Of a DNA stretch of 64,000 bases, positions 38,753-62,634 are shown in pieces. The notes below the pieces were generated by a model. It was not told the origin of the DNA. It did not search any database and saw nothing but the letters and a program-made list of their open reading frames with translations. Source of the stretch: Chelatococcus caeni (GTDB lineage: Bacteria; Pseudomonadota; Alphaproteobacteria; Rhizobiales; Beijerinckiaceae); assembly GCF_014196925.1 (NCBI RefSeq), contig NZ_JACIEN010000004.1, positions 372,001 to 436,000 on the forward strand, in the 5' to 3' direction. Numbering within the stretch: position 1 is the stretch's first letter; the number at the start of each line of letters is the position of its first letter. Made by a program: the position numbers and the translations under genes.

Positions 38753-38815
38753 CGTCACCCTTCCATGCCCCGCGCCCGGCGCCTCCGCGCCGGGCCTATC
38801 CCGGAGCACGCGATC

Positions 38816-40411
38816 ATGGCCCGCGCATTCGCGAAGATCGCCTTCACCCCGAGCGTCAAGGCGGCCCAGACCCGCTACGGGAGCCGCGCCACCTATGCCG
38901 GTCTCGATGCGGCAGGCGACACGCATGATGTCATCACCCCCCGCGAGGCGACGTTCATCGAGGCCCGCGACGGCTTCTACCAGGCGAGCGTCGGCGAAGG
39001 CGGGTGGCCCTATGTCCAGTTCCGCGGCGGGCCGCGCGGCTTCCTCAAGGTGCTCGGCGAGCGGACCATCGGCTATGCCGATTTCCGCGGCAACGTGCAG
39101 TACATCAGCGTCGGCAACATCGCCGCCGACGGGCGCGTGGCGCTGATCCTCATGGACTATGCCAACCGCCGCCGGCTGAAGATCTGGGGCCGGGCCCGCA
39201 TCGTGCACGAGGACGAGGACCCCGGCCTTGTCGCGCGGCTGGAGAACCCCGCCTATCGCGCACGCGTCGAGCGGGCCGTCGTCATCACGGTCGAGGCCTT
39301 CGACTGGAACTGCCCGCAGCACATCGTGCCGCGCTTCACCGAGGACGAGATCGCCGCGCTCACGGCCCCGCTGCAGCGGCAGATCGAGCAGCTCTCGGCC
39401 GAGAACCGGCGACTTGCGTCAGCCGGCACCGCCGAGGCCATCGGCAATGGTCCGCTTTCGCTCGTCGTGTCGGCCATCCGCCAGCTCACGCCGAAGGTCC
39501 GCCTCTACGAGCTGCGCTCACCCTCCGGCGAGGCCCTGCCGCCCTGGACGGCCGGCGCCCATCTCCACGTTCCCGTATGCCTTGCGGACGGACGCGAGCA
39601 AACGCGCAGCTATTCGCTCGCCGGCGACCCGGCCGAGCGCCGGCATTACGAGATCGCCGTGCGCCTCGACGAGGACGGCCGGGGCGGCTCGGCCGCACTC
39701 CATCGCGACATCGGGCTCGGCACCGTCCTGCGGTGCGGCCTGCCCGCCAACCGCTTTCCCCTGCACACTGACGAACGGCCCGCCATCCTGATCGCCGGCG
39801 GCATCGGCATCACGCCCTTCAGGGCCATGGCGCTGGCGCTTTCGGCAGGCAATCGGCCGTTCACGCTGCACTACGTCGCGCCGACCGCATCGGACATGGC
39901 CTTCCACGACGATCTTGCGGCGCGCATCGGCGCACGACTGCGGCCCTACACGAGCCGCGGCGACAAGCCCGCGCCGCTCGATGTGAGGCAGGTCCTCGCG
40001 ACCATGCCGGCCGATGCCGTGGTCTATGTCTGCGGACCGGCGCGTCTCATCGATGCGGTCCGGCAAGCGGCGGCGGCCCTCGGCATCGCGCCGGAGCGCC
40101 TGCACTTCGAGCGTTTCACGGCCGGCGAGCCGGCGGCGGACGACGGCCCCACCACCGTCGATCTCGCCCGCTCCGGGCGCACCGTCGCGGTGCGGGCCGA
40201 GGAGACGATCCTCGATGCCGTGATCGCGGCGGGCGTCGACGCGCCTTCCGAGTGCCGCGCCGGCACCTGCGGCACCTGCGCCGTCAAGGTGATCGCCGGA
40301 ACGCCCGACCATCGCGACAGCGTGCTCACGCCCGACGAGCGCGACCGGGCCGGCCTCATGTGCATCTGCGTCTCCCGCGCCGCGACCGAACGGCTCGTCC
40401 TCGACCTCTGA
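38816..40411 (+). CDS. Fusion: PNPOx-like flavin split barrel + ferredoxin-NAD(P) reductase with 2Fe-2S domain
   Basis: The 531-residue protein joins two parts. Residues 1 to about 190 form a pyridoxamine-phosphate-oxidase-like FMN split barrel (PYVQFRGGPRGFLKVLGERTIGYADFRGN). Residues about 210-531 form an oxidoreductase of the VanB/phthalate-dioxygenase-reductase type, with flavin-binding RSYSLAGDP, nucleotide-binding ILIAGGIGITPFRAMA and a C-terminal plant-type ferredoxin (C-x4-C-x2-C in ECRAGTCGTCAVKV, then LMCICVS). It could pass electrons from NAD(P)H through flavin and 2Fe-2S to the split-barrel flavin. The ATG at 38816 has CGGAGCACGCG upstream. Confidence 0.88.
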   Translation: MARAFAKIAFTPSVKAAQTRYGSRATYAGLDAAGDTHDVITPREATFIEARDGFYQASVGEGGWPYVQFRGGPRGFLKVLGERTIGYADFRGNVQYISVGNIAADGRVALILMDYANRRRLKIWGRARIVHEDEDPGLVARLENPAYRARVERAVVITVEAFDWNCPQHIVPRFTEDEIAALTAPLQRQIEQLSAENRRLASAGTAEAIGNGPLSLVVSAIRQLTPKVRLYELRSPSGEALPPWTAGAHLHVPVCLADGREQTRSYSLAGDPAERRHYEIAVRLDEDGRGGSAALHRDIGLGTVLRCGLPANRFPLHTDERPAILIAGGIGITPFRAMALALSAGNRPFTLHYVAPTASDMAFHDDLAARIGARLRPYTSRGDKPAPLDVRQVLATMPADAVVYVCGPARLIDAVRQAAAALGIAPERLHFERFTAGEPAADDGPTTVDLARSGRTVAVRAEETILDAVIAAGVDAPSECRAGTCGTCAVKVIAGTPDHRDSVLTPDERDRAGLMCICVSRAATERLVLDL

Positions 40412-41501: not shown

Positions 41502-42389
41502 ATGGACGCGGGCGAACACGAATACGTCTTCGAGGAAGAGCGCCCGCGGCTCATCGGCCTCGCCTACCGCATCCTCGGCTCGCGCGCCGATGCCGAGGAT
41601 GCGGTGCAGGACACGTGGCTGAAATGGCGTCTCGCGGACACACAGGCCGTGGACAATCCAGCCGCCTGGCTGACGGCCACCTGCACCCGCCGCTGCATCG
41701 ACATGCTGCGGTCGGCCCATCGCAAGCGGGTCGACTACATCGGGGCGTGGCTGCCGGAGCCGATCCACACGCCGGTCGGCCACGCGGCGGCGGAGAGCCA
41801 CGAGATCGCGGCGACGCTGACGACGGCCTTCCTCCTGATGCTGGAGCGCCTGACGCCGAAGGAGCGGGCCGCCTATCTGCTGCGCGAGATCTTCGACATG
41901 GACTATGCCGCCGTGGCGGAGGCGATGGAGCTGCGCGAGCCGGCCGTGCGCAAGCTCGTCTCGCGCGCCAAGGCGGCGGTCGGCAGCGATGCCGTCCGCC
42001 ACGTCGCGCCCCTCGAGCGCCAGCAGGAGCTGCTGGCCGCATTCCAGGCCGCTGTGGCGGAGGGCGCGACCGCCGGCCTGACGCGGCTCCTCGCCGAGGA
42101 CATCCGTGTCACCGCGGACGGCGGCGGCAAGGCGACGGCCGCGCGCGAGCCCATCGAGGGGCGCGAGGCGGTGCTCGACTTCCTGGCCGGGCGGCTGCAC
42201 GAATGGTGGCGGAGCTATCGCTGGGTGGAGGCCGCCATCAACGGCCAGCTCGGCTTCATCCTCACGGACGCCGATGCGCCGGTCGCGGCCGTCACCTTCG
42301 GCTTCGATGCCGAGGGCCGGACGAGCGACGTCTTCATCATGCGCAACCCCGACAAGCTCGCCGGCCTGACGGCGCTTGTCAGACATTGA
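41502..42389 (+). CDS. ECF41 family sigma factor with C-terminal SnoaL-like extension
   Basis: The 295-residue protein has ECF region 2 (about residues 10-75: RLIGLAYRILGSRADAEDAVQDTWLKW), region 4 (about 108-158) and a C-terminal extension of about 120 residues of the SnoaL-like kind. The ECF41-conserved motifs are present: WLPEP at 83-87, DGGGK at 206-210 and NPDKL at 282-286. In ECF41 proteins the extension modulates activity in place of a separate anti-sigma factor. It is co-transcribed with the AhpD-like partner and its end overlaps the convergent LysR gene by 11 nt. Confidence 0.93.
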   Translation: MDAGEHEYVFEEERPRLIGLAYRILGSRADAEDAVQDTWLKWRLADTQAVDNPAAWLTATCTRRCIDMLRSAHRKRVDYIGAWLPEPIHTPVGHAAAESHEIAATLTTAFLLMLERLTPKERAAYLLREIFDMDYAAVAEAMELREPAVRKLVSRAKAAVGSDAVRHVAPLERQQELLAAFQAAVAEGATAGLTRLLAEDIRVTADGGGKATAAREPIEGREAVLDFLAGRLHEWWRSYRWVEAAINGQLGFILTDADAPVAAVTFGFDAEGRTSDVFIMRNPDKLAGLTALVRH

Positions 42390-43295
42390 AGGAACGGCGC
42401 GGCGTCAGTCGCTGCGCGCAGCGTCGCAACACCGGCTCGAAGGCTGCGACGGCCGGCGAGAGGGAGCGGCCGCTGGCATGGATGAGGACGATGTCGCGGG
42501 AAATCGACGGCGCGGTCAGGGGCCGCGCCGCCACGCGCTTTCCCTCAGCCGCGGCGAAGGCATAGGTCGGCAGCACGGCCGAGCCGAGGCCGGCCTCGAC
42601 GAGGGCGACGGCGGTCGTGATCTGCGAGACCTCGAAAGCGGGCCGCAGCGGCACCTCGGCCGCCTCGTAGCCGACTTCGACGAGAAGGCGGATGCCGCTG
42701 TCGCGCGTCAGCGTGACGAGCGGCTCGTCGGCAAGCTCTCGCCAGGCGACGGCATCGCGATCGAAGAAGGGACTGCCGGGGCCGCAGAAGAGCATCAGGC
42801 TGTCGCGCGCAAGGCTGGCGCGCTCGATGCCCTCCTCGGCCGGGGCGAAGGTGCCGAGCCCGCAATCGGCCTTGCCGAGACGCACGGCCTCGACGATGCG
42901 GTCCGTGCCCGTGTCGAGCACGGCGACCTGGATGCCCGGATGGCTCGCGCGGAATTCGGCGATGGCACGCGGCAGGATGGCGGCGGCAAGGAGCGGCGGA
43001 CGGCGATGACGATGCGCCCGCGGCGGCGCTCGGCAAGGTCGGCCGCATTGCGCACGGCAAGCTCGAGGTCCTCCAGCACCTTGCCGGCGGCGGCCAAGAA
43101 TTCCCGCCCGCCCGCCGTCAGTTCCACCCGCCGCGTCGTGCGGTCGAACAGGCGGATGCCGAGCGCGGCCTCCAGCTCCCGCACCTGCTGCGACAGCGCA
43201 GGCTGCGTCATGCGCAGCCGCTCGGCGGCGCGCGTGAAGCTGCCGAGCTCGGCCACGGCAAGAAACACCTCGATCTGGCGGATGGTGACGTTCAT
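42379..43295 (-). pseudogene. LysR family regulator interrupted by a one-base frameshift
   Basis: Two minus-strand frames make up one LysR protein. 43295 to about 43000 encodes the winged helix and start of the effector domain (MNVTIRQIEVFLAVAELG to RRRGRIVIAV). From about 42999 to 42379 the remainder continues in another frame (PPLLAAAILPRAIAEFR to RRCAQRLTPRRSFNV). Adding one G in the GG pair at 42998-42999 restores a single 305-residue LysR protein with no other change, so the lesion is recent or is a sequencing error. It is divergent from the molybdenum-hydroxylase gene and would have been the obvious regulator of that cluster. Confidence 0.85.
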
Positions 43296-43431: not shown

Positions 43432-45717
43432 TTGGCGAACAGCGAACAACGCCAGACGAGCGTCGGCCGGTGGATCGGGGTGAGCCTGCCCCGTTTCGAG
43501 GACGCGCGACTCGTCACCGGCGCCGGCCGCTTCGTCGACGATCTCGCGCCCGACGCCTGTCTCCACGTCGAATTCGTGCGCAGCAGCCACGCGCGGGGGA
43601 CCATCGCGGCGATCGACACGGCGGAGGCGCGCGCGGCGCCGGGCGTCGTCGCCGTCTTCACCGGCGCCGAGCTCGGCGCGCTGGGCGAGGCATCGGTCAA
43701 TCCGCTCCTGCCGGATATCCGCGTGCCGCGCTTCTCCGTTCTCGCCTCAGGCACCGTCGAGGCCGTCGGCCAGCCCCTTGCCGCCGTCATCGCCGAGACG
43801 GCCGCTGCCGCCCGCGATGCGGCGCAGCTGGTGGCGGCGGAGATCGAAGCCATGCCGCTGCGCGACGGCGGCCCGGACGACGAGGCGATCAGCCATCGCT
43901 GGGCGGCCGGCGATGTCGAAGCCGCCTTCGCCGGCGCCGACCACATCGTTCATGTCTCCGTGGCCCACGCCCGGCTCGCGCCGGCGCCGCTCGAACCGCG
44001 CGCGGCGCTCGCCAAATGGAGCGAGGCCGAGGGCCTGCTCACCGTCTGGCTGTCGACGCAGACACCGCATCGCGCCCGCCAGGACCTTGCCCGCATCCTC
44101 GGCCTGCCCGCAGCGCGGCTGCGCGTGATCGCGCCGGATGTCGGCGGCGCCTTCGGCGGCAAGGCCTCGATCTATCCCGAAGATGTCTTCGTCGCCTGGG
44201 CCGCGCGCCGGCTCGGCCGCCCCGTGAAATGGTGCGCGACGCGCGGCGAGGACCTTCAGGCGGCCACGCACGGTCGCGGCGGGCGGCTCGAAGGGTCCCT
44301 CGCGCTCGACCGGCACGGCCGCGCGCTCGCGCTCCGCGCAAACCTCGACTTCCCGCTCGGCCACTGGCTGCCCTACAGCGCGAGCGCGCCGGGCCGCAAT
44401 GCCGGGCGCATCCTGCCGGGGCCCTACCGCATCGGCGCTGTCGAGATCGCGCTCACCGGCCGGCTGACGAATACGGCCGCCGTCGGGATCTACCGCGGCG
44501 CCGGGCGCCCGGAAGCGGCCATGCTGATGGAGCGGCTGATGGATGCGGCGGCGCGGGCGCTCGCGCTCGACCCCGCCGAGATCCGGCGGCGCAACCTCCT
44601 TGGCCCGGAGGAGCTTCCGTTCCGCACGGCGACGGGGGAAACCCTCGATTCCGGCGACTATCCGCAACTGCTCGCCCGCGCCTGCGAGCGGGCAGACTAT
44701 GCCCGGCTGCGCGAAGAGATCGCCGCCCGGCGCGCCGCCGGCGAAATATGCGGCATCGGCCTTGCGCTCTATGTCGAGCCGTGCGGGCAGGGCTGGGAGA
44801 GCGCCACCGTCTCGCTCGCCGCAGATGGGGGTATCCTTGCCGCCACCGGCGCGACGGCGCAGGGCCAGGGCCGGGAAACCGCCATCGCGCAGATCGTCGC
44901 CAGCGGGCTCGGCGTGCCGCCCGGGCGCGTCCGCGTCCGCCACGGCGACACCGCCGGCGCGCCCGAAGGCATCGGCGCACTCGCAAGCCGCAGCACGGCC
45001 ATCGGCGGCAGCGCCATGCTCAAGGCCGTGGAAGCCTTCCGCGACGAGGCGCGCCGGGCCGCGGCAAAGCTCCTGCAATGCGCCGAGGCGCATGTCGCCG
45101 CCGTCGAGAGCGGCTTCGTCGCCCTCGACGGTACCGGCCGCGCCATCTCCTGGCAGGGCATGGGCGAAAGCCTCGCCGCCGGCACGGAGGGGGACACAGC
45201 GCTCTCCACCTCTGTCGTCTTCTATGCCGACGGGGAGGCCTGGAGCAGCGGCTGCTGCATCTGCGTGGTCGGCATCGACGGCGAGACGGGCGTACCGACA
45301 ATCGAACGGCTCACGTGGGTGGACGATGCCGGCACGGTGCTCAACCCGATGCTGGTCGAGGGTCAGCTCGTCGGCGGCATGGCGCAGGGGATGGGCGAGG
45401 CGCTGATGGAAAGCCTCGTCTATGACGAGGACGGCCAGCTCGTCACCGGCTCCTTCATGGATTACGCCATGCCGCGCGCCGCCGACGTGCCGCCCGTCGC
45501 CATCGACAAGCTCGAGACCCCCTCCCCCACCAATCCCCTCGGCGCCAAGGGCGTCGGCGAGGCGGGCACCATCGGCGTGCCGGCCGCCATCGTGAACGCC
45601 GTCCTCGACGCCCTCTCACCCTACGGCGTCACCCATCTCGACATGCCCCTGACGAGCCAGAAGATCTGGAAGGCGATCAGGGCCGGCACCGGTCCCGAAA
45701 GGCCAGGCAAGCCATGA
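43432..45717 (+). CDS. Xanthine dehydrogenase/aldehyde oxidase family molybdopterin-binding subunit
   Basis: The 761-residue protein is a large subunit of the molybdenum hydroxylase family. It has GAGRFVDDL near the start, GGAFGGKASIYPEDV in the pterin region, the aldehyde-oxidase-like IYRGAGRPEAAM, GATAQGQGRETAIAQI and the catalytic Glu loop LGAKGVGEAGTIG near the end. The CO-dehydrogenase active-site Cys loop is absent. Translation starts at a TTG (43432) behind GGGGGAAGG. No gene for the FAD or 2Fe-2S subunits is adjacent, which is unusual. It would hydroxylate an N-heterocycle or oxidise an aldehyde, and overlaps the next gene by 4 nt. Confidence 0.88.
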   Translation: MANSEQRQTSVGRWIGVSLPRFEDARLVTGAGRFVDDLAPDACLHVEFVRSSHARGTIAAIDTAEARAAPGVVAVFTGAELGALGEASVNPLLPDIRVPRFSVLASGTVEAVGQPLAAVIAETAAAARDAAQLVAAEIEAMPLRDGGPDDEAISHRWAAGDVEAAFAGADHIVHVSVAHARLAPAPLEPRAALAKWSEAEGLLTVWLSTQTPHRARQDLARILGLPAARLRVIAPDVGGAFGGKASIYPEDVFVAWAARRLGRPVKWCATRGEDLQAATHGRGGRLEGSLALDRHGRALALRANLDFPLGHWLPYSASAPGRNAGRILPGPYRIGAVEIALTGRLTNTAAVGIYRGAGRPEAAMLMERLMDAAARALALDPAEIRRRNLLGPEELPFRTATGETLDSGDYPQLLARACERADYARLREEIAARRAAGEICGIGLALYVEPCGQGWESATVSLAADGGILAATGATAQGQGRETAIAQIVASGLGVPPGRVRVRHGDTAGAPEGIGALASRSTAIGGSAMLKAVEAFRDEARRAAAKLLQCAEAHVAAVESGFVALDGTGRAISWQGMGESLAAGTEGDTALSTSVVFYADGEAWSSGCCICVVGIDGETGVPTIERLTWVDDAGTVLNPMLVEGQLVGGMAQGMGEALMESLVYDEDGQLVTGSFMDYAMPRAADVPPVAIDKLETPSPTNPLGAKGVGEAGTIGVPAAIVNAVLDALSPYGVTHLDMPLTSQKIWKAIRAGTGPERPGKP

Positions 45718-46685
45718 ATTACGCGAAGAAGGACGCCAAGGCCTATGCCCGGGCCAACATGAAGGGCATCTGGGCGGCGGCGCTGACGCCGTTCACGCCC
45801 GCGCTCGCCATCGACGAGGACGGATTTCGCGAAAACATCCGCCACTGGCTCGACGACCTGAAGATCGACGGGCTCTTCATCGCCGGCAAGCAGGGCGAGT
45901 TCTTCTCCATGTCGGTGGAGGAGCGCAAGCGCAGCTTCGAGATCGCGGTGGAGGCCGCGGCCGGCCGCGGCGCCACCATCATGTCCTGCTCGGACCAGAA
46001 CATGGACGTGGTGATCGACCTGGCGCGCCACGCCGAAAAGGTCGGCGCCGACTACATCGTCATCCACGCGCCGGTGCTGCATTTCTTCAAGGCGCAGGAC
46101 GAGACGGTCTACGAATACTACCGCGCTATCGCCGACAAGGTCGGCATCGGCATCGCCCTGTGGAGCCACCCGGACAGCGGCTACCTCATGAGCCCGGAGC
46201 TCTGCAACCGCCTCGCCGACATCGAGAACGTCGTCGCCATCAAGTACAGCGTGCCGCGGCCGATGTATGCCGAGCTGACGCGCCTGGCGGGCGACCGCAT
46301 CCTCGTCAGCACCGCCTCGGAGGAGGAGTGGCTCGACAATGTTCTCGAGCTCGGCTGGCAGCTCTACCTGTGCTCGTCGCCGCCCTATCTCGTCCAGACG
46401 CCGCACGACCTGCGCATGCGCGAATATACGGATCTCGCGCTGCGCGGGGAGGCGGAGCGGGCGCGCGCCGTGCGCGACAGCCTGGAGCCCGTGCGCCGGG
46501 CGCTGCGCGGCACGCGGCCGGCCGAGAAGCCGCATGCGCATCAGAAATACTGGCAGGAACTGCTCGGCCAGGTCGGCGGGGCTGTGCGCCCGCCGCTCTT
46601 GCCCCTGACGGAGGCCGAGAAGGCGGCGACGCGCGCCGCCTTCGACACCTGCGGGCTCCGGACCGCAGCCACGGCCGCGGCGTGA
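45714..46685 (+). CDS. Dihydrodipicolinate synthase/N-acetylneuraminate lyase family protein (class I aldolase)
   Basis: The 323-residue protein has the DapA-type TIM barrel: GIWAAALTPFTP (strand 1), GLFIAGKQGEFFSMSVEER (glycine loop), then the Schiff-base lysine in VVAIKYSVP near residue 182. The usual GTTGE motif is replaced by GKQGE. Family members cleave or join pyruvate-containing oxo-acids. The last 30 residues are Ala-rich. It overlaps the molybdenum hydroxylase gene by 4 nt. Here it is likely to cleave or hydrate a ring-opened product of the pathway (inference). Confidence 0.88.
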   Translation: MNYAKKDAKAYARANMKGIWAAALTPFTPALAIDEDGFRENIRHWLDDLKIDGLFIAGKQGEFFSMSVEERKRSFEIAVEAAAGRGATIMSCSDQNMDVVIDLARHAEKVGADYIVIHAPVLHFFKAQDETVYEYYRAIADKVGIGIALWSHPDSGYLMSPELCNRLADIENVVAIKYSVPRPMYAELTRLAGDRILVSTASEEEWLDNVLELGWQLYLCSSPPYLVQTPHDLRMREYTDLALRGEAERARAVRDSLEPVRRALRGTRPAEKPHAHQKYWQELLGQVGGAVRPPLLPLTEAEKAATRAAFDTCGLRTAATAAA

Positions 46686-46703
46686 ACGGTGCCGAAAACG
46701 TAA

Positions 46704-47270
<567 letters not shown>

Positions 47271-47329
47271 CGGGCACGAGAACCCGACAACGACGACCCA
47301 GAGACGGAACGATTGGCCGAGGAACCGCA

Positions 47330-48493
47330 ATGAAGTTCAAATCGCTGTTGTTGGCGCTGGCGATGACCGGCGCCGCCTTGCCGGCAGGCGCCGAGACGCC
47401 GGTCAAGATCGGCATGATCACGACGCTGTCCGGCCCGGGCGGCTATCTCGGACAGGACATCCGCGACGCCTTCAAGCTCGCCATCGACATGGAGGACGGC
47501 AAGCTCGGCGGCGTGCCGGTCGAGCTCATCGTCGAGGACGACAGCCTGAAGCCCGGCCAGGGCAAGCAGATCGCCGACCGCCTGATGAAGAACGACGGCG
47601 TGAAGCTGTTCACCGGCATCGTCTTCTCCAACGTCGCGGGGGCGACCGTGCCGGACATCGTCGATTCCGGCGCCGTCTACGTCAGCCCCAATGCCGCGCC
47701 GTCGAATTTCGCCGGCAAGGAATGCCACCGCAACTACTTCGTCGTCTCCTGGCAGAACGACAGCCTGCACGAGAGCGCGGGCCAGAACGCGACCAATCTC
47801 GGCTACAAGCGCGCCTTCATCCTCGCGCCCAACTACCAGGCCGGCAAGGACGCGCTCGCCGGCTTCAAGCGCTATTTCAAGGGCGAGATCGTCGGCGAGG
47901 TCTACACCCGCCTCGACCAGACGGACTTCGCCGCGGAGATGGCGCAGATCCGCGCGGCCGATCCCGACGTCGTCTTCCAGTTCCATCCGGGCGGCCTCGG
48001 CATCGCCTTCCTGCGCCAGTACCAGCAGGCGGGCCTGACGGGCAAGATCCCGATGGTCCTCGCCGCTCCCTCCATGGACCACGTGACGCTCAACGCCGTC
48101 GGCGAGGCGGCGCTCGGCGTCAATGTCTCGAGCCACTGGAACGCCGACCTCGACAATCCGGCCAACAAGACCTTCATGGACGCTTGGCAGAAGGCCTACA
48201 ACCGTCCGGCGACCTATTATGCGAGCCAGGGCTACGACACCGCGCTGCTGATCGCCTCGGCGCTCCGGCAGACCGGCGGCAAGCTCGACGACATCGAGGC
48301 GTTCAACGCCGCCCTCGCCAAGGCCGACTTCCAGTCCGTGCGCGGGGCCTTCAAGTTCGGCCCCAACCAGCACCCGGTCCAGGACTGGCGTGCCCTGCGC
48401 GTCGAGAAGGACGGCGACAAGCTCGTCCTGAAGACCGTCGGCACCATCTTCACCGACCACGGCGACGCCTACGCCGAGCAGTGCAAGCTCTGA
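47330..48493 (+). CDS. Branched-chain-type ABC transporter substrate-binding protein
   Basis: The 387-residue protein starts at 47330 with CGAGGAACCGCA before the ATG. A Sec signal peptide MKFKSLLLALAMTGAALPAG is followed by a periplasmic binding domain of the LivJ/HAAT type (VKIGMITTLSGPGGYLGQDIRDAFKLA; RQYQQAGLTGKIPMV; YDTALLIASALRQTGG). Such proteins bind amino acids, aromatic acids or amides. It is the receptor of a complete LivFGHM-type transporter that follows, and probably imports the aromatic or related compound handled by the cluster. Confidence 0.92.
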   Translation: MKFKSLLLALAMTGAALPAGAETPVKIGMITTLSGPGGYLGQDIRDAFKLAIDMEDGKLGGVPVELIVEDDSLKPGQGKQIADRLMKNDGVKLFTGIVFSNVAGATVPDIVDSGAVYVSPNAAPSNFAGKECHRNYFVVSWQNDSLHESAGQNATNLGYKRAFILAPNYQAGKDALAGFKRYFKGEIVGEVYTRLDQTDFAAEMAQIRAADPDVVFQFHPGGLGIAFLRQYQQAGLTGKIPMVLAAPSMDHVTLNAVGEAALGVNVSSHWNADLDNPANKTFMDAWQKAYNRPATYYASQGYDTALLIASALRQTGGKLDDIEAFNAALAKADFQSVRGAFKFGPNQHPVQDWRALRVEKDGDKLVLKTVGTIFTDHGDAYAEQCKL

Positions 48494-48511
48494 GGGCGCA
48501 TTGCTGCGGCA

Positions 48512-48534
48512 GCGGCGGGCAGCACGCCCGCCGC
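48512..48534 (+). terminator. Intercistronic GC hairpin after the binding-protein gene (mRNA-stabilising/attenuating element)
   Basis: GCGGCGGGC (48512-48520) and GCCCGCCGC (48526-48534) form a perfect 9-bp stem with the loop AGCAC, between the binding-protein stop and the permease start. No T-run follows. Such hairpins commonly protect the upstream mRNA and let the binding protein outnumber the membrane parts. Confidence 0.5.
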
Positions 48535-48565
48535 CGCTGCCCGCCCACGGCAAGACGGGCCCGAG

Positions 48566-49480
48566 ATGACGCTCCTCCTCGAACAATTGCTGAACGGCCT
48601 GCAGTTCGGCGTGATGCTGTTCCTGCTCGCGGCGGGGCTGACGCTCATCTTCGGCATCATGGGCGTCATCAATCTCGCCCACGGCTCGCTCTACATGATC
48701 GGCGCCTATGCCGCCGCGATCGCAGCCGAGCGCACGGGCTCCTTCCTCGTCGCCGTGCCGGCGGGGCTCGCGGCGGCCGGCCTCGCCGGCATGGCGATGG
48801 AATATCTCGTGATCCGCCGGCTCTATGCGCGTGACCATCTCGACCAGGTGCTCGCCACCTTCGCCCTCATCCTCTTCTTCAACCAGACGGTGACGCTGCT
48901 CTTCGGCCGCCAGCCGCTCTTCGTCTCCATCCCCCCGGCGCTCAACGGCTCCATCGAGATCCTGCCGGAGCTCGCCTATCCGGTCTATCGCCTCGCCATC
49001 ATCGCGGTGGGGCTTGCGGTGGCCGTCGGCCTCTACCTTCTCATCAACCGCACGCGCATCGGCATGCTGGTGCGGGCCGGCGCCACGCACCGCGACATGG
49101 TCCGGGCCCTCGGCGTCGACGTGCGGCTTCTCTACACGGCCGTCTTCGGGCTCGGGGCGCTGCTCGCGGGCCTCGCCGGGCTGATGGCGGGGCCGATCCT
49201 CGCCGTCCAGGTCGGCATGGGCGAGCAGATCCTCATCATGACCTTCGTCGTGGTGGTGATCGGCGGCGTCGGCTCCATCCGCGGCGCCTTCTTCGGCGCG
49301 CTCATCGTCGGTGTCGTGGACACGCTCCTGCGCGCCTTCCTGCCCGGCCTGCTGCGCCAGCTGACGACCGGCCCGGAGGCCGACGCCCTGGGAGCGGGCC
49401 TGTCGTCCATGGGCATCTATCTTCTCATGGCGGTCGTCCTGCTCGTCCGCCCGAAGGGACTGTTCATCGCCAATGCGTGA
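48566..49480 (+). CDS. livH: Branched-chain-type ABC transporter permease (LivH family)
   Basis: The 304-residue protein has about eight membrane helices, with LNGLQFGVMLFLLAAGLTLIFGIMGVINLAHGSLYMIGAY near the start, a typical LivH beginning, and GALLAGLAGLMAGPILAVQVGMG near the middle. The family loop GGVGSIRGAFFGALIVG follows. It starts 72 nt after the binding protein and overlaps the second permease by 8 nt. With LivM it forms the channel; the gene symbol marks the family, not a confirmed substrate. Confidence 0.92.
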   Translation: MTLLLEQLLNGLQFGVMLFLLAAGLTLIFGIMGVINLAHGSLYMIGAYAAAIAAERTGSFLVAVPAGLAAAGLAGMAMEYLVIRRLYARDHLDQVLATFALILFFNQTVTLLFGRQPLFVSIPPALNGSIEILPELAYPVYRLAIIAVGLAVAVGLYLLINRTRIGMLVRAGATHRDMVRALGVDVRLLYTAVFGLGALLAGLAGLMAGPILAVQVGMGEQILIMTFVVVVIGGVGSIRGAFFGALIVGVVDTLLRAFLPGLLRQLTTGPEADALGAGLSSMGIYLLMAVVLLVRPKGLFIANA

Positions 49481-50486
49481 CACCGTGACGGCGCAGACGG
49501 GCTTTGCCCCACCTTCCGCGAAACCGCTCCTGGCGGCGGCCGCCGTCATCGCGGCGCTCGTCCTCCTGCCGTTCGTGGCGCAGGCCGCCGGCTCGCCGGC
49601 AACGGTGGCGCTGGCGACGCGCGTGCTCATCTACGGCATCGCGGCCGCGAGCCTCAATCTCGCCCTCGGCTACGGCGGGCTCGTCAGCTTCGGCCATGCC
49701 GCCTTCTTCGGCATCGGCGGCTATACCGTCGGCATCCTCTACCAGCACTACGTCGCGGACGAGCTCATCCTCGGCCTGTTCACGGGCAGCAACCAGCTGC
49801 TCGTCACCCTGCCCGCGGCCGTCGTCGTCTCCGGCCTTCTGGCATCCGTGATCGGGGCCCTGTCGCTGCGCACCAGCGGCGTGCAGTTCATCATGATCAC
49901 CCTCGCCTTCGCGCAGATGATCTTCTACCTCTTCGCCTCGCTGACGGCCTATGGCGCGGAGGACGGGCTCATCGTGCGCCGGCGCAACGAGCTCTTCGGC
50001 CTCGACACGCGCAACGACACGGTCTTCTACTTCATCTGCCTCGGCGTGGCGGCCGCCTTCTTCGCGCTCCTGTCGCGCATCGTGCGCTCGCGCTTCGGCC
50101 TCGTCCTCGTCGGCCTGCGCCAGAGCGAGCGCCGCATGGCCGCCATCGGCATCGCGCCCTACCGCTACAAGCTCGCCGCCTTCGTCATCTCCGGCATAGG
50201 CACCGGCCTCGCCGGCGCGCTGATGGCCAACTACCTGCGCTTCGTCAGCCCGGACATGCTGCACTGGACCAAGTCCGGCGAACTGATGATCATGGTCATC
50301 CTCGGCGGCGTCGGCACGCTGTTCGGGCCGCTGCTCGGGGCCGCCGCCCTCGTCATCCTGGAGACGGTGCTGGCGGCCTGGACGGAGCACTGGCAGATCA
50401 TCCTCGGACCGCTACTGCTCGCTGTCGTGCTGTTCACGCGCGGCGGGCTGCAGGCACTGCTGGCGCGGCTCGGAGGCAAGCCATGA
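49473..50486 (+). CDS. livM: Branched-chain-type ABC transporter permease (LivM family)
   Basis: The 337-residue protein has about nine to ten membrane helices and LivM landmarks: AAASLNLALGYGGLVSFGHAAFFGIGGYTVG, GLRQSERRMAAIGIAPYRYKLAAFVISG and the ending MVILGGVGTLFGPLLGAAALVILE. The gene overlaps livH by 8 nt and the ATPase gene by 4 nt (ATGA). Both permeases are present, so the channel is complete. Confidence 0.92.
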   Translation: MRDTVTAQTGFAPPSAKPLLAAAAVIAALVLLPFVAQAAGSPATVALATRVLIYGIAAASLNLALGYGGLVSFGHAAFFGIGGYTVGILYQHYVADELILGLFTGSNQLLVTLPAAVVVSGLLASVIGALSLRTSGVQFIMITLAFAQMIFYLFASLTAYGAEDGLIVRRRNELFGLDTRNDTVFYFICLGVAAAFFALLSRIVRSRFGLVLVGLRQSERRMAAIGIAPYRYKLAAFVISGIGTGLAGALMANYLRFVSPDMLHWTKSGELMIMVILGGVGTLFGPLLGAAALVILETVLAAWTEHWQIILGPLLLAVVLFTRGGLQALLARLGGKP

Positions 50487-51246
50487 GCGGGATCTCGCCC
50501 GAGCCCCTTCTCAGCGTCCGCGGCCTCGCCAAGCGCTTCGGCGGCCTCATCGCCACCGACGGCGTCGATCTCGACGTGATGCCGGGCGAGCTCCATGCTC
50601 TCATCGGCCCCAACGGCGCCGGCAAGACGACGCTCATCGCGCAGCTCTTCGGCGAGTTGAGGCAGGATGCCGGCGCCATCCGCCTCGACGGGGAGGAGGT
50701 GGGCCATCTCGCGACGCCCGACCGCGTGCATCGCGGGCTCGGCCGCACCTTCCAGATCACGCAGCTGCTGCCCGACTTCACGGTGCTCGACAATGTCGCG
50801 CTCGCCGTACAGGCACGGGACGGGCACAGCTTCCGCTTCCTCGCCGACGCGCGCCGCGACGAGGGCCTGCGCGGACGCGCCCGCCGCCACGTGACGGCGA
50901 GCGGCCTCGCCAACCGCGCCGAGACCCGGGTGGCGGACCTCTCGCACGGCGAGCAGAAGCAGCTCGAGCTCGCCGTGGCCCTCGCCTGCGAGCCGCGCCT
51001 CTTGCTGCTCGACGAGCCGATGGCCGGCCTCGGCCACGTGGAAAGCGGCCAGATGGTGGAGACGCTGCGTGCGCTCAAGGGCCGGACCACCATGCTCCTC
51101 GTCGAGCACGACATGGATGCGGTCTTCGCCCTCGCCGACCGGGTCTCCGTCCTCGTCTACGGGCGCATCATCGCGACGGGCACGGTGGAGGAGATCCGCG
51201 ACAACCCGGACGTGCGCACGGCCTATCTCGGCGAGGGGGACGCCTG

Positions 51247-51247
<1 letters not shown>
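50483..51247 (+). CDS. livG: Branched-chain-type ABC transporter ATP-binding protein (LivG family)
   Basis: The 254-residue ATPase has Walker A GPNGAGKTTL near residues 42-51, the LivG-type FQITQLLPDFTVLDNVAL loop, the signature LSHGEQKQLELAVALA and Walker B LLLLDEPMAGLG. It overlaps livM by 4 nt and the second ATPase by one base, consistent with a single translationally coupled transporter operon. Confidence 0.93.
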
Positions 51248-51934
<687 letters not shown>

Positions 51935-51948
<14 letters not shown>

Positions 51949-53065
51949 CAACGATCCTGCCCCGCTTGCCGCCCATTCGTCGCACCGCGATCCGGTCGCG
52001 GCACTGCGCGAGGCGCTCTCCGCCATCCTGCGGGGCCTCGTGGCCGCCGGCTGCGGCCCGCATCATCTGACCGGCATGGTCTGGGAGAGCGCCGATCCGG
52101 CCGCCTTCCACCCGGCGCGCCATGAAGTCGACCTCACTTATCGTGAAGTCTTCGCCGGCTTCCGCCCGCCGATCACGCTGCGCCCCGGAACGGATGACGG
52201 CCTGACGGTGCGTGCGAGCTTCGCGCCGCCTGCCGCGCCACCTGCGGAACCCGTCTATGCCGGCTACAGCCTGCCGGAGCTCGCCCGCCAGTACAGCCCG
52301 CGCCTGCAGACGGACATGGAGGCGCTTTTCCGGCAATGGAGCCGGGACGGCGAAGCCTTCCGCGCCCATCATCGCGGGCTCGATCTCGCCTATGGCCCCG
52401 GCGTCTACGAGCGGCTCGACCTCTACCGGCCGCAAGGAGCCAGGCGCGCGCCGCTGTGGGTCTTCCTGCACGGCGGCTATTGGCAGGCCTCCGACAAGGC
52501 CCAGCACGCCCAGTTCGCCAGGGGCATGCTCGACGCCGGCTATGCGGTCGCCATGCCTAACTACGGCCTCGCACCCGACACGCCGCTCAGGGTCATTGTT
52601 GCCCAGGTCGGGGCCGCCCTGCGTTTCCTCGCGCGCGAGGCGGACAGCCTCGGTATCGATGCCGCGCGCATTCACCTCGCCGGCCATTCCGCCGGCGGGC
52701 ACCTCGCCGCCATGGCGGCGCTCGACCCGCGGGACCCGCCGGTGCGCTCAGCCCTGCTGCTCTCGGGCCTCTTCGACCTCACGCCGCTCGGCCTCCTGCC
52801 GCTCGGCCGGCTGCTCGGCCTCGACGATGCGGCCCTTGCGGCGCGGCTCAGCCCGCTCGGCCATCCGCCACCGCGCGGCCTGCGCATCGGCGTCGCGGTC
52901 GGCGAGAAGGAGAGCGATGAGTTCAAGCGCCAGTCGCGCGTCATTGCCGAAGCCTGGGGCGCGCCGGCACCGCTCATCGCCGCCGACCGGCATCATTTCA
53001 GCCTGCTGGAGGACCTGAACGGCGGCGCGCTGCTCGATCTGGCGCTGGCGACGGCCGCCGATTGA
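51935..53065 (+). CDS. Fusion: RidA-like domain + kynurenine-formamidase-like alpha/beta hydrolase
   Basis: The 376-residue protein joins two folds. Residues about 20-100 resemble the RidA/YjgF family: ILRGLVAAGCGPHHLTGMVWESADPAAFHPARHEVDLTYREVF then GFRPPITLRP. The usual catalytic Arg (RPART in RidA) appears replaced, so deaminase activity is uncertain. Residues about 150-376 are an alpha/beta hydrolase of the kynurenine formamidase type: HGGYW at 179-183, nucleophile S252 in GHSAGG, acid near residue 324-328 and a His at 353-354. The start at 51935 overlaps livF by 14 nt. It could hydrolyse an amide or formyl group and process an enamine or imine product. Confidence 0.8.
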
Positions 53066-53087
53066 GCCCGCGACGAAGGACAGGCGC

Positions 53088-53909
53088 ATGCCCGCAATGA
53101 CGCGCAAACCCCTGCGGCTCACGATCGTCGGCTGGGGCGCCATCGCCCGCCGTGTCGCCGGCCTTCTCGCGGAGCGCGTTCCGCAAGACGTCACCCTCGT
53201 CGCCGTCGGCGTGCGCGAGACGACGGCCATCGGCGCCGGCCTGCCCGCGGGCGCGGCCCTGCTTCGCCACCCGGACGCACTCGCCGCCGTTGCCCCGGAC
53301 ATGGTGATCGAAGCCGCCGGCCGGGCTGCCGTCGGGCCGTGGGGCGAGGCCGCGCTGCGCTCGGCCGACACCTTCGTCGTGTCGTCGACCAGCGCCTTTT
53401 GCGATACTGCGCTCCACGACCGGCTCATCCGCATCGCCGAGGACCGCGGCAGCCGCATCGTCATCCCGCCCGGCGCGCTCGGCGGCATCGATGCCCTCAG
53501 CGCGGCCGCCGCTCTGCCGCTCGACGAGGTGGTGCACACCATCGTCAAGCCTCCGGCCGCCTGGCGCGGCACGGCGGCGGAGGCGCTCGTCGTGCTCGAC
53601 CGCATCGAGAGCCCCACCGCCATCTTCACCGGCTCGGCGCGCGCGGCTGCGGACCGCTTTCCGCAGAACGCCAATGCGACCGTCATCACGGCGCTTGCCG
53701 GCATCGGGCTCGACCGCACCCGCGTCGTGCTGGTGGCCGATCCGCAGGCGACCGGCAACAGCCATCGCCTTGCGGCACGCGGCGCCTTCGGCACGCTCGA
53801 GGTGACGATCGAGAACCGGGCGCTCGCCGACAACCCGAAATCCTCGGAGATGACGGCGCTCAGCCTAGCGCGGCTGGTGGAGAACCGCGTGCGCACGCTC
53901 GCGCGCTAG
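53088..53909 (+). CDS. Aspartate dehydrogenase family protein (NadX-like)
   Basis: The 273-residue protein has the Rossmann motif TIVGWGAIARRVA near residue 12, PPGALGGIDALSA (near residue 127), KPPAAWRG, FPQNANATV, GNSHRLAARGAFG (the conserved catalytic His) and a C-terminal ADNPKSSEMTA motif. This is the L-aspartate dehydrogenase (DUF108) family, which makes iminoaspartate or oxaloacetate and ammonia with NAD(P). It is 22 nt after the fusion gene. The cluster context suggests a related amino-dicarboxylate as substrate rather than free aspartate (inference). Confidence 0.88.
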   Translation: MPAMTRKPLRLTIVGWGAIARRVAGLLAERVPQDVTLVAVGVRETTAIGAGLPAGAALLRHPDALAAVAPDMVIEAAGRAAVGPWGEAALRSADTFVVSSTSAFCDTALHDRLIRIAEDRGSRIVIPPGALGGIDALSAAAALPLDEVVHTIVKPPAAWRGTAAEALVVLDRIESPTAIFTGSARAAADRFPQNANATVITALAGIGLDRTRVVLVADPQATGNSHRLAARGAFGTLEVTIENRALADNPKSSEMTALSLARLVENRVRTLAR

Positions 53910-53921
53910 AGCGCGTGAGCC

Positions 53922-54206
53922 TCAGCCGATGCGCGTCATGCGCCGCACGTCGGCGGACCTGATGATGCCGCGGCTGCGCTCACCATGGGCCACGAGGTGC
54001 GGAGCCGCGAGGTGCCGGTCGAGCGCCGCCTCGTCGCGCCAGTTCTCGTAGAAGATGAAGAGGCCGGGATCGGCGTTGTCCCGGTGCAGGTCGTACTGGA
54101 TGCAGCCATCTTCCGCCCGGGTCGGGGCGATGAGTGCTTCGAGCGCCGCACGGGCGGCTTCTTCCTGTCCCTCCTCGGCGCGGATGATGGCGACGACGGT
54201 CAGCAT
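53922..54206 (-). CDS. Putative quinol monooxygenase / ABM-domain protein
   Basis: The 94-residue protein has the antibiotic-biosynthesis-monooxygenase fold: MLTVVAIIRAEEGQEEAARAALEALIAPTRAEDGCIQYDLHRD, then IFYENWRDEAALDRHLAAPHL, the YgiN-type pattern. Such small dimeric proteins are linked to quinol or redox side reactions. The ATG at 54206 (MLTVVAI) is chosen over one 30 nt upstream. It is the last gene of the minus-strand unit after the SAF-domain oxidoreductase, and is convergent with the aspartate dehydrogenase gene. Confidence 0.8.
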   Translation of the reverse strand: MLTVVAIIRAEEGQEEAARAALEALIAPTRAEDGCIQYDLHRDNADPGLFIFYENWRDEAALDRHLAAPHLVAHGERSRGIIRSADVRRMTRIG

Positions 54207-54278
54207 GGGTGAACGAACCTCCGGCAAGTGTCCCAACGTGAAGGGGCCGGCGGCGAGCCGGCCCCGTCGCCACCGATC

Positions 54279-55649
54279 CTACTCGGCCGCGATGCGCCGC
54301 GCAGCCGCCTGTTGCTCCATGGCGCGGCGCACGCGCACGGCCTCGCTGTCGGCGATCTCGACATCTTCCCAGCGCACGACGCCGCCGGGCGCGACCGGCC
54401 GCTTCAGCGCCACCTTGTGCGCAAGGCCGATGGGCAGCGCGCCGATGGCGAGCGAATCCTCCGCCCGCATCACCCGCCCCCAGACGGTGTAGCCGCCCTC
54501 GCCGTCGAGCATCTCGCCCGGCTTGAGCGCCTTCTTGGCGACGGCCACGACGTCCGAGCGGAAGGCGCTCGGCGCGCCCGTCGCCTCGCCGCGCAGCGCC
54601 GCATTGGCGACGCTGACGCCGAGCTCGAGGCCGATGAGATGCACGGTACGGTAGAGCGCGGCATAGCGGCCGGACGGGTCCACGGTGATGTTGTATTCGC
54701 GGAAGCAGCGGCGGGCATAGTCGCCGCGCACATCCGTGTCTGCCGCCTCGAAGACCACGTAGACGCCCCAGCGCAGGTCGTTGACCACCTGGCGCCCGTC
54801 GCGCTCGACGCTGGTGACGACCTCGACCATGCCCTTGCGCTCGAGCACGCCGCCGTCGGCGACGGGCCTGAGAACCTGGGGCAGGTCGTGCGCGCCGGCG
54901 GGCGGAAAGAGGAGGCCGTCCTTCGGCGCGAGCAGACCCGTCGCGTTCGAGATCGCGGCCATCTCGATGGACGATTTGGTGCCGTCGATGAAGGAGTTGA
55001 ACATCTGCGGGTTCATGCCGCCGAGGGCCGCCTGTTCCGGCGTGATGCCGAAATGCGTCCACACCGTCTCCGGCGTCGACTGGTGGTAGCTCGGCATGTA
55101 CTTGGTGCCCTTGCCGGCGGCGACGACGCGGAAGCCGCAGGTCTCGGCCCAGTCCACCATCTCGCAGACGAGCGCCGGCTGGTCGCCGTAGGCGAGCGTG
55201 TAGACGAGGCCGGCCTTGCGGAATTCCTCCGCGAGATGGGCGCCGGCGAGCACGTCCGCCTCGACATTGACCATGACCATGTGCCGGCCGTTCTTCGCCG
55301 CCAGGAGGGCGTGGCGGATGCCGGCGCCCGGATTGCCCGTGGCATCGATGACGACGTCGAGGCCGTCGGCCTTGATGAGCGCCTCCGAATCCTCGGTGAG
55401 GTGCGTGCCGCCCTTCGCCAGCGCATCGGCGAAGGAAGCGGCGGCGACCGCCTCGACGTCCCAGCCGGTGTTGGTCATGGCCTTGCGGGCGCGCTCGGCC
55501 GAGAGGTCGGCCACCGCCATGAGGTGCAGCCCGACTGTGGTGCGCACCTGGGAGAGGAACATCGAGCCGAACTTGCCGGCCCCGATGAGGCCGACCCGCA
55601 CGGGCCGGCCCTCGGCTGCGCGATGCTTGAGCATGGATGCGAGATTCAC
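54279..55649 (-). CDS. NAD(P)-dependent oxidoreductase with C-terminal SAF-like domain (homoserine-dehydrogenase-like)
   Basis: The 456-residue protein has an N-terminal Rossmann fold, VRVGLIGAGKFGSMFLSQ, with VVIDATGNPGAGIRHALLAAKNG later. The middle part resembles homoserine-dehydrogenase or Gfo/Idh-type enzymes. The C-terminal 80-100 residues have the SAF pattern: VAVAKKALKPGEMLDGEGGYTVWG and LPIGLAHKVALKRPVAPGGVVRWEDVEI. This architecture is known from sugar-acid and tetronate pathways, although exact reactions vary. It is 20 nt downstream of the TRAP DctM gene, and probably oxidises an intermediate of the imported compound. Confidence 0.82.
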   Translation of the reverse strand: MNLASMLKHRAAEGRPVRVGLIGAGKFGSMFLSQVRTTVGLHLMAVADLSAERARKAMTNTGWDVEAVAAASFADALAKGGTHLTEDSEALIKADGLDVVIDATGNPGAGIRHALLAAKNGRHMVMVNVEADVLAGAHLAEEFRKAGLVYTLAYGDQPALVCEMVDWAETCGFRVVAAGKGTKYMPSYHQSTPETVWTHFGITPEQAALGGMNPQMFNSFIDGTKSSIEMAAISNATGLLAPKDGLLFPPAGAHDLPQVLRPVADGGVLERKGMVEVVTSVERDGRQVVNDLRWGVYVVFEAADTDVRGDYARRCFREYNITVDPSGRYAALYRTVHLIGLELGVSVANAALRGEATGAPSAFRSDVVAVAKKALKPGEMLDGEGGYTVWGRVMRAEDSLAIGALPIGLAHKVALKRPVAPGGVVRWEDVEIADSEAVRVRRAMEQQAAARRIAAE

Positions 55650-55669
55650 GGGGATTGCTCCTGTTCAGA

Positions 55670-56932
55670 TCAGAAGTGGATGGTGAAGGCCGGCACGAAG
55701 GCGACGAGCCCGAGCAGCGTGATGGCGACGAGGTAGAACGGCCACATCTCGCGGGCGACAGCACCCACGCTCTCGCGCGAGATGGCCGAGGCGATGAAGA
55801 GCGTCGTCCCCACGGGCGGCGTGAACAGGCCGATGGCGAGGTTGATCGTCATCATCACGCCGAGTTGGATCAGGTCGAGCCCGATGGCCCCGGCAAGCGC
55901 CACGAACAGCGGCCCGAGCAAGAGGATCGCCGCCGGCAGGTCGAGGAACATGCCGACGAAGAGCATGACGAGGTTCATCATCAGGATGATGAGCCAGGGT
56001 TCCTTGAGCGTGTTCAGCGCCCAGTCCGCCAGCATGGCCGGGATGTTCTCGACGGTCAGGATGAAGCCGATGAGGTTGGACGCGGCGATCACCAGCATCA
56101 CGACGCCCGTCGTCGCGAGGGTCGCGATGATATTGGCGAGAAGTCCCGTGCCGTTGAGGTCGCGATAGAAGGCGAAGCGGATGATGAGCGCGTAGGCGAC
56201 GGCGATGACGCTCACCTCCGTCGGCGTCGCGATGCCGAAGCGCAGGAGGACGACGATCATGAGCGGCAGCGAGATGGCCGGCGCCGCGACGAGCGCCGTC
56301 TTCGCCACCGCCTTCGCACCGCCCTCGATGCGCACCACCGGCAGGTCGCGCGCACGGCCGATGAGCCAGCACGAGACCATGAGCCCGATCGTCAGCATCG
56401 CGCCGGGCAGGAGACCGGCGAGGAAGAGCTGCGCGATGGAGGCGTTCGAGACCGCCGCATAGAGGATGAGCGGGATCGACGGGGGGATGAGCACGGCGAT
56501 GATGGAGGAGGAGGCGGTGATCGCCGCCGCCAGTGCCGGCGGATAGCCCTCGCGCCGCATCCACGGGATGAGCATGGCCCCGAGCGCGGAGGCGTCCGCC
56601 ACCGCCGAGCCCGACACGCCGCCGAACAGCGCCGAGCCGAAGACGTTGACCTGGCCGAGGCCGCCGCGGAAACGCCCGACAAGCGCGGCGGCGAAGGCGA
56701 TGAGCTGCTGCCCCAGCCGCCCCGACATCAGGAGCGCACCCGACAGGATGAAGAAGGGAATGGCGAGCAGCGGGAAGCTCTGCATCGGCTGGAAGATCTT
56801 GAGCAGCACCACCGTGCTCGGGATGTCGCCGAGGAGGAGGATCGCCGCCGTGCCGCTGAGGACGAGTGCATAGCCGATGGGCATGCCGACGAGCATGAAC
56901 GCGGCAAAGAGGATGATGAGCAGCACCGTCAC
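55670..56932 (-). CDS. dctM: TRAP transporter large permease subunit (DctM)
   Basis: The 420-residue protein has about twelve membrane helices with DctM landmarks: IPFFILSGALLMSGRLGQQL, FGGVSGSAVADASALGAMLIPWM, then PPSIPLILYA and LIGFILTVENIPAM. Similar reading continues upstream in frame, but the GTG at 56932 overlaps the DctQ stop as GTGA and begins VTVLLIILFAAFMLVG. It forms the transport core with DctQ and DctP, importing a C4- or sugar-acid-type substrate with Na+ or H+. Confidence 0.93.
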   Translation of the reverse strand: MTVLLIILFAAFMLVGMPIGYALVLSGTAAILLLGDIPSTVVLLKIFQPMQSFPLLAIPFFILSGALLMSGRLGQQLIAFAAALVGRFRGGLGQVNVFGSALFGGVSGSAVADASALGAMLIPWMRREGYPPALAAAITASSSIIAVLIPPSIPLILYAAVSNASIAQLFLAGLLPGAMLTIGLMVSCWLIGRARDLPVVRIEGGAKAVAKTALVAAPAISLPLMIVVLLRFGIATPTEVSVIAVAYALIIRFAFYRDLNGTGLLANIIATLATTGVVMLVIAASNLIGFILTVENIPAMLADWALNTLKEPWLIILMMNLVMLFVGMFLDLPAAILLLGPLFVALAGAIGLDLIQLGVMMTINLAIGLFTPPVGTTLFIASAISRESVGAVAREMWPFYLVAITLLGLVAFVPAFTIHF

Positions 56933-58490: not shown

Positions 58491-58720
58491 GAGACACCCT
58501 CCCGTTCGCGCCGTGCCCGCGCCAGGCATCGGCGACGTTGTAAAATGAGATTTGCGTTTCCCGGCCATCGCCGCCGCGCGGCGATTACTTCCCTGTGCAA
58601 TGGCTGCTTGGTTTTTTGCGGTGCAGCACTTGTTGTCGCGAACGAAAGCCTAGGACGGCTTGGTCTTTAGGACAAACCAGTTTTATGATCCGATTGTTTA
58701 GCTGGCCTGAAAGGTCCGCC

Positions 58721-59620: not shown

Positions 59621-59624
59621 GCGC

Positions 59625-60323: not shown

Positions 60324-60337
60324 GGAAGGCTCCTTTC

Positions 60338-61771: not shown

Positions 61772-61783
61772 CGCGTCCTCCGC

Positions 61784-62632: not shown

Positions 62633-62634
62633 CG

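Follow-up and report, generated by a model that had tools for sequence, protein, structure and literature searches.

A gene cluster around 3-hydroxyanthranilate dioxygenase in Chelatococcus caeni suggests an alternative lower pathway for 3-hydroxyanthranilate breakdown

Introduction

Bacteria that degrade 3-hydroxyanthranilate (3-HAA), whether formed in the kynurenine pathway or by the nba/onb systems for 2-nitrobenzoate, open its ring with 3-hydroxyanthranilate 3,4-dioxygenase (HAO). The product, 2-amino-3-carboxymuconate-6-semialdehyde (ACMS), is passed to ACMS decarboxylase (ACMSD) and 2-aminomuconate semialdehyde dehydrogenase (AMSDH), and the steps upstream are a nitroreductase and a mutase, or the kynurenine route (PMC5817917, PMC10143591). 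The sources consulted describe two fates of ACMS, quinolinate formation and decarboxylation (PMC10143591, PMC11650718, PMC7842363). A literature search, with subscription papers largely outside its reach, found no description of an ACMS route through an enzyme of the DapA type. Here we analyze an HAO gene cluster at positions 43432-53909 of a 64,000-nucleotide stretch of the Chelatococcus caeni genome (contig NZ_JACIEN010000004.1, 372,001 to 436,000; hereafter the window; source genome 5.43 Mb). Similar to the described systems, the cluster encodes an HAO. In contrast to them, it has no ACMSD, and in its place are found a DapA-fold enzyme (DapA), a molybdenum (Mo) enzyme, exchanged in relatives for an aldehyde dehydrogenase (ALDH) resembling succinate-semialdehyde dehydrogenase (SSADH), and an aspartate dehydrogenase-type enzyme (AspDH). 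We consider this cluster more likely than not to be a catabolic operon for 3-HAA whose lower half stands in place of the textbook route.

In protocatechuate 4,5-cleavage (Lig), the carboxyl group is kept through ring opening, the aldehyde is oxidised first, and hydration and aldol cleavage then lead to oxaloacetate. The route that we propose would share this order of steps. It would differ from the Lig route in carrying an amino group where protocatechuate carries a hydroxyl, in relying on a class I enzyme of the DapA fold rather than on LigJ and LigK, and in including AspDH.

Results

Two alternative lower modules accompany HAO

In most bacteria that have this HAO, one of two lower modules is present, and the alternative one is well supported. 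The textbook module consists of ACMSD, a muconic-semialdehyde dehydrogenase and a Rid protein, and the alternative consists of DapA and an aldehyde oxidiser, which is either the Mo-hydroxylase large subunit (MoL) or ALDH, often with AspDH. Among 385 alphaproteobacterial genomes, 36 carry HAO and 23 a member of the DapA subfamily (E<=1e-140), with HAO also present in 22 of these 23 (Fisher p 2e-25, unadjusted for relatedness; the 23 genomes span 16 family codes). The sole DapA genome lacking HAO is an assembly in 450 contigs (G485), and a weaker DapA match in G364 (4e-64) was left out of the 23. Five of the 36 genomes with HAO have ACMSD (E<=1e-170), and it is absent from all 22 that combine DapA and HAO. 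Both groups of genomes also have amidohydrolase matches at 3e-65 or weaker; these were left out of the ACMSD count, given the empty interval from 1e-171 to 3e-65. One family, f156, includes a genome with ACMSD and another with DapA. The sequence-only reading of this locus had proposed a single pathway and held that rare co-occurrence elsewhere would speak against it. The genes were found together far above chance, and DapA, HAO, MoL or ALDH, and often AspDH and a transporter, recur together across many genomes and plasmids, which supports the single-pathway idea. Both the clustering and the co-inheritance are solid.

The same division was seen in a scan of one genome per species (84,980 species), which reaches close relatives only and yielded 56 HAO loci, 25 of them shorter than 20 kb with contigs ending there. 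DapA was found in 32 loci, an ACMSD-type match in 14 and neither module in 11; the sole overlap (L070) is a 31% amidohydrolase match. The DapA loci belong to Nitratireductor, Aminobacter, Amorphus, Oceanicella, Antarcticimicrobium and Phaeobacter, to gammaproteobacterial and acidimicrobial metagenome-assembled genomes (MAGs), and to one Mesoflavibacter MAG. Nine aligned members of the ACMSD type keep H10, H12, H177 and D294, which are ligands in the Pseudomonas fluorescens ACMSD (PMC11650718). None of the 14 ACMSD-type loci has MoL, SSADH-like ALDH or AspDH nearby, whereas an ALDH of the 2-hydroxymuconic-semialdehyde dehydrogenase type is found in nine and a Rid protein in nine, which matches the published onb route (PMC5817917). 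DapA (E<=1e-40) was found nowhere in the 13 genomes with an ACMSD locus. The 11 loci with neither module gave ten genomes for testing, since L085 shares its assembly with L084; six of these ten have DapA elsewhere and four have none. In a tree of HAO made by a quick method (56 rows, being the window and 55 of the 56 loci, with L058 left out), many branches are weak and six changes between DapA and ACMSD are needed.

Plasmids also carry the module. DapA (E<=1e-60) was found in 47 plasmid records, mostly from Phaeobacter (23) and Ensifer (10), and HAO in 77. At least 45 of the 47 DapA records are among the HAO matches listed, the two others being Phaeobacter, and the genus tallies agree. The plasmid regions and both sets of loci used below overlap in species, so that the counts for the 56 loci and for a further 29 DapA loci are not independent (L236, for example, carries the LysR of L068 at 100% identity).

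The Mo enzyme is exchanged for an aldehyde dehydrogenase

MoL (43432-45717, plus strand) is a large subunit resembling form II CoxL, with Pfam matches to MoCoBD_1/2, and it scores below cut-off in each of the 13 NCBIfam models matched. The loop YRGAGR marks form II and CSFR marks CO dehydrogenase. The window enzyme has YRGAGR at 354 and GVGE at 707, and among related loci YRGAGR was present in 25 of 27, CSFR in none of 27 and the catalytic Glu motif in 26 of 27. Across the 32 DapA loci, where presence calls rest on identity and coverage thresholds that we set, MoL was found in nine, ALDH in 13, both in one and neither in 11. The one overlap (L087) is due to a 52% ALDH at the far end of the locus. 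The 29 further DapA loci, called in the same way, gave MoL in 16, ALDH in seven, both in none and neither in six. Fifteen plasmid regions were fetched, two of which carry no annotation; the other 13 all have HAO and AspDH, with ALDH in ten, MoL in two, both in none and neither in one. The exchange persists where DapA is not adjacent to HAO (ALDH in L218-L220, MoL in L225-L228). The best matches of ALDH are SSADH models, below their cut-offs. Since MoL swaps with an NAD-dependent ALDH, it is most likely an aldehyde oxidiser and is best read as such, not as a ring hydroxylase. L033, L037, L069 and L229 have genes for both the small and the medium subunit within the cluster region. An orphan small and medium pair elsewhere in the window genome was considered and rejected on the best of eight small-subunit matches, which belongs to a complete set that includes a large subunit.

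HAO, DapA and AspDH

HAO (46722-47270, plus strand) is the sole copy in its genome. It passes both curated cut-offs, with 268.5 bits for TIGR03037 (cut-off 145.95) and 276.2 bits for NF009763 (cut-off 220), and the nearest solved structure is 1yfu (279 bits). The sequence and its alignment with 1yfu confirm the initial view that the enzyme is complete: H52, E58 and H96, R48, R100 and E111, and C126, C129, C163 and C166 are all kept. We take these to be the iron, substrate and rubredoxin-site residues, respectively, as in the Cupriavidus metallidurans enzyme.

DapA (45714-46685, plus strand) matches Pfam DHDPS at 120 bits and is labelled in current records as a 'dihydrodipicolinate synthase family protein'. 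Its AlphaFold model (pLDDT 92) matches dihydrodipicolinate synthase (DHDPS) and neuraminate lyase at a TM score of about 0.8, and K177 is invariant in 20 of 20 alignment rows. Fold and Schiff-base lysine are thus like those of N-acetylneuraminate lyase and the hydratase-aldolases NahE and PhdJ. A catalytic tyrosine and a GxTGE-type motif act in the family of DapA and N-acetylneuraminate lyase. In contrast, the enzyme described here reads GKQGE where neuraminate lyases have GSTGE, no tyrosine occurs in residues 118-129 in any of the 20 rows, and identity to the 50 best solved structure matches is 20-27%. Since neither the usual tyrosine nor the usual motif is kept in the alignment, the active site differs from those of both DHDPS and neuraminate lyase. 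We regard the protein as a distinct subfamily and a putative hydratase-aldolase.

AspDH (53088-53909, plus strand) scores 223.8 bits with the subfamily model NF009828 (cut-off 177), below the cut-offs of other AspDH models, and matches 2dc1 at E 1e-25. N224, H226, P250 and S253 are invariant in 14 rows, and the N-x-H and NPxxS regions are kept. A strong match (E<=1e-80) was found in 17 of the 22 genomes with DapA and HAO. This enzyme is proposed to be an iminosuccinate reductase.

The hydrolase

The alpha/beta hydrolase at 51935-53065 (plus strand) matches Pfam BD-FAE/Abhydrolase_3 and has the motifs HGGYW and GHSAGG, the former present in seven of seven rows. It had been read as a fusion of a RidA-like and a formamidase-like part. 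The second part holds as a prediction from sequence, given HGGYW and a match to the kynurenine formamidase 4e11 (E 2e-15), although the lipase 9n8r and the esterase 2pbl score higher. We rejected the RidA-like part, since the N-terminal stretch of about 125 residues has no Pfam match at E<=10 and aligns with the Rid proteins of related loci at an hhalign probability of 0.4%; the quality of the AlphaFold model (mean pLDDT 57.7) was too low to decide the matter. Ten of the 32 DapA loci have a relative of the hydrolase nearby, and we regard it as an accessory whose place varies. Within the order, 127 of 249 genomes gave a match, all but that in its own genome far weaker, which shows the family to be too common for use as an anchor in finding related loci. 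A defence role was also considered, and no match was found.

Upper pathways beside the module

Kynureninase, kynurenine 3-monooxygenase (KMO) and tryptophan 2,3-dioxygenase (TDO) adjoin DapA, ALDH and AspDH in some relatives. Kynureninase occurs in five of the 13 annotated plasmid regions, kynureninase with KMO in L042, L050 and L056, and TDO at the locus in L050. Kynureninase alone yields 3-HAA only from 3-hydroxykynurenine. In Rhizobium bangladeshense and Sinorhizobium mexicanum, a PnbB-family protein and FMN/flavin reductases lie beside the module. 2-Nitrobenzoate mutase is presumably kin to PnbB, and by analogy this set is a candidate for a nitroreductase-mutase start of 2-nitrobenzoate breakdown. 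The PnbB-family protein and reductases were located at L239 8990-10737 and L240 8910-10667, on rhizobial plasmids typed as conjugative.

Seven Aminobacter and Nitratireductor loci have a third set, consisting of a flavin monooxygenase (nearest structure 4h2n), a protein that belongs to the 1H-3-hydroxy-4-oxoquinoline 2,4-dioxygenase (Hod/Qdo) family and matches 3ibt at E 1e-79, and a formamidase-like hydrolase. Genes of this set include L032 3378-4580, L038 4730-5515 and L036 6927-7793, and the dioxygenase was found in seven of 27 genomes tested, only at those seven loci. The set would yield 3-HAA from 8-hydroxylated quinolones, which makes it a candidate route for 4,8-dihydroxyquinoline or xanthurenate. 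In its three enzyme types it is similar to quinaldine degradation in Arthrobacter Rue61a, which employs quinaldine 4-oxidase, Hod and N-acetylanthranilate amidase. In Rue61a, however, anthranilate is degraded by a CoA-thioester route (PMC3534580), whereas the product in these relatives would go through HAO. Separately, a benzoylformate-decarboxylase-like enzyme of the thiamine diphosphate (ThDP) type was seen near HAO in three alphaproteobacterial MAGs (L043 8083-9756, called by scanning; L053 7169-8842 and L057 13435-15090, called by clustering).

The sequence-only reading had left the substrate broad, naming hydrolysis of an amide or formamide, ring opening, imine handling and aldol cleavage. 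The aldol cleavage and imine handling fit our results, and the substrate can be narrowed to 3-HAA because relatives have several upper pathways next to the module for which 3-HAA is a plausible end point. The same reading had noted that the usual partners of HAO are absent from the cluster. For kynureninase, TDO and ACMSD (no match at E<=1e-30) this extends to the whole window genome; KMO and muconic-semialdehyde dehydrogenase were not searched genome-wide. The window strain probably takes up its 3-HAA from outside or releases it with the hydrolase.

Layout of the cluster and its surroundings

As first described, the cluster is one coupled run: all ten genes lie on the plus strand and are intact, with no internal stops and intergenic gaps of -14 to +72 bases. 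Between HAO and the hydrolase are five genes, also on the plus strand, for a Liv-type ABC importer. These encode a periplasmic binding protein (47330-48493; Pfam Peripla_BP_6, E 2e-81), LivH-type (48566-49480) and LivM-type (49473-50486) permeases, and LivG-type (50483-51247) and LivF-type (51247-51948) ATPases, the last four identified by homology and by the product names of Chelatococcus sp. CO-6 with no Pfam scan. In the nearest relatives, the binding protein is 58-79% identical (11 relatives) and the LivH-type permease 73-81%. Among named records, the nearest is plasmid pCO-6 of Chelatococcus sp. CO-6, in which gene order is identical and DapA and HAO are 98.7% and 98.9% identical, respectively.

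A divergent LysR-type regulator (42379-43295, minus strand) is split into two frames, with one Pfam domain (HTH_1, LysR_substrate) in each piece. Alignment with ten relatives spanning both frames places the loss of register near 42999-43002. The gene is annotated as a single 918-base gene in CO-6, and the break may be a true change or an assembly slip.

Two further features were noted outside the cluster. Downstream, 53922-63000 (mainly minus strand) holds an apparent acid-sugar cluster that looks separate from the HAO cluster, with a quinol monooxygenase-type protein, a DRL/SAF oxidoreductase, a TRAP transporter, a LysR regulator (plus strand), a class II aldolase and an FGGY kinase; the first two were identified with Pfam and the rest by CO-6 names. 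Upstream, a long open reading frame (38765-40411, plus strand) seemingly joins pyridoxamine-oxidase-like and ferredoxin-reductase-like parts, as judged by eye. At this position CO-6 has an annotated 888-base gene of the pyridoxamine 5'-phosphate oxidase family.

Discussion

Based on these observations, we predict the following pathway. The Liv-type importer would bring in 3-HAA or a precursor, and the hydrolase could open an N-acyl or N-formyl derivative. HAO would open the ring to give ACMS, as is established for its family. The Mo enzyme, or ALDH in relatives, would then oxidise the ACMS aldehyde to 2-amino-3-carboxymuconate and so prevent closure to quinolinate, a step that we infer from the replacement of MoL and ALDH by one another. 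DapA would form a Schiff base at C2 through K177, water would be added at C4 and the C3-C4 bond would be cleaved, with iminosuccinate or oxaloacetate and malonate semialdehyde as the likely products. AspDH could reduce iminosuccinate to aspartate and thereby save the nitrogen, so that all seven carbons and the nitrogen of 3-HAA would be kept. The presence of an alternative lower module is well supported, and its reactions and their order are our predictions from sequence. We give about even chances to the wider view that this is a third enzymatic fate of ACMS, in which many alphaproteobacteria, and some gammaproteobacterial, acidimicrobial and Mesoflavibacter MAGs, would oxidise ACMS before DapA cuts the product into iminosuccinate and malonate semialdehyde, so that 3-HAA would end as aspartate and a C3 unit without loss of carbon or nitrogen. 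Under this view, the module would often be plasmid-borne and joined to interchangeable upper pathways (kynureninase, PnbB/nitroreductase, quinolone dioxygenase).

The same enzymes may also act in the other order. DapA would then split ACMS to iminosuccinate or oxaloacetate and malondialdehyde; oxidation of this C3 aldehyde by the Mo enzyme or ALDH would follow. We consider this rather unlikely. Gene content would be identical, ALDH matches best with SSADH models, although below their cut-offs, and on chemical grounds ACMS should be a good acceptor for water at C4. However, malondialdehyde would be a toxic intermediate. In addition, ACMS needs only minutes at room temperature to cyclise to quinolinate (PMC11650718), so prior oxidation would protect it.

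It is quite improbable that the cluster serves ring cleavage of a 3-HAA analogue, with the Mo subunit hydroxylating an N-heterocycle before ring opening. Quinoline 2-oxidoreductase (1t3q) is among the nearest solved Mo proteins and seven relatives have quinolone-type genes, but these occur both with MoL (L033) and with ALDH (L032, L034, L036, L038-L040). We rejected MoL as an N-heterocycle hydroxylase since its exchange for ALDH, which cannot hydroxylate a ring, contradicts this role. The substrate residues of HAO are also intact, and the kynureninase and PnbB-type neighbours fit 3-HAA. Least probable of all is that HAO serves NAD synthesis through quinolinate, with neighbours that are unrelated or make precursors: nadA is above cut-off in just eight of the 36 HAO genomes, AspDH belongs to the NadX family and some records label this AspDH group with NAD biosynthesis, but the window genome has nadA, for which we rejected NAD synthesis as the whole explanation, and lacks kynureninase and TDO to derive 3-HAA from tryptophan, the importer, DapA and aldehyde oxidiser are unneeded for NAD, and nadA is unmatched in 15 of the 17 genomes in which DapA accompanies a strong AspDH, so that iminoaspartate would have no NadA use there and AspDH does not serve NadA.

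Several observations weigh against the proposed pathway of oxidation followed by DapA cleavage. Neither module was found in nine of the 36 HAO genomes. The majority of the 36 are without nadA, and in that majority HAO may contribute to NAD synthesis as well. Six of the 22 DapA genomes have the weaker amidohydrolase matches (6e-53 to 4e-33). AspDH lies near DapA in just 17 of 32 and 11 of 29 loci, is weak in two and missing in three of the 22 DapA genomes, and also occurs in genomes that do not have DapA. Neither MoL nor ALDH was seen in 11 of 32 and six of 29 DapA loci; although nine of the 11 are shorter than 20 kb and two of the six shorter than 5 kb, both genes are missing from L066 and L070 at full length. 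In the window itself, no small or medium subunit gene lies beside MoL, the LysR regulator is out of frame, and the genome lacks kynureninase, TDO and the quinolone dioxygenase (KMO and PnbB were not searched there). Moreover, conservation of neighbours cannot tell whether oxidation or cleavage comes first.

In conclusion, ACMS is a classical branch point, and a third route from it, if true, would change the annotation of 3-HAA, kynurenine and 2-nitrobenzoate breakdown in roseobacters, rhizobia and their relatives. It would also provide a likely substrate for the DapA subfamily and a catabolic role for this AspDH group. The proposed route can be tested in culturable strains.

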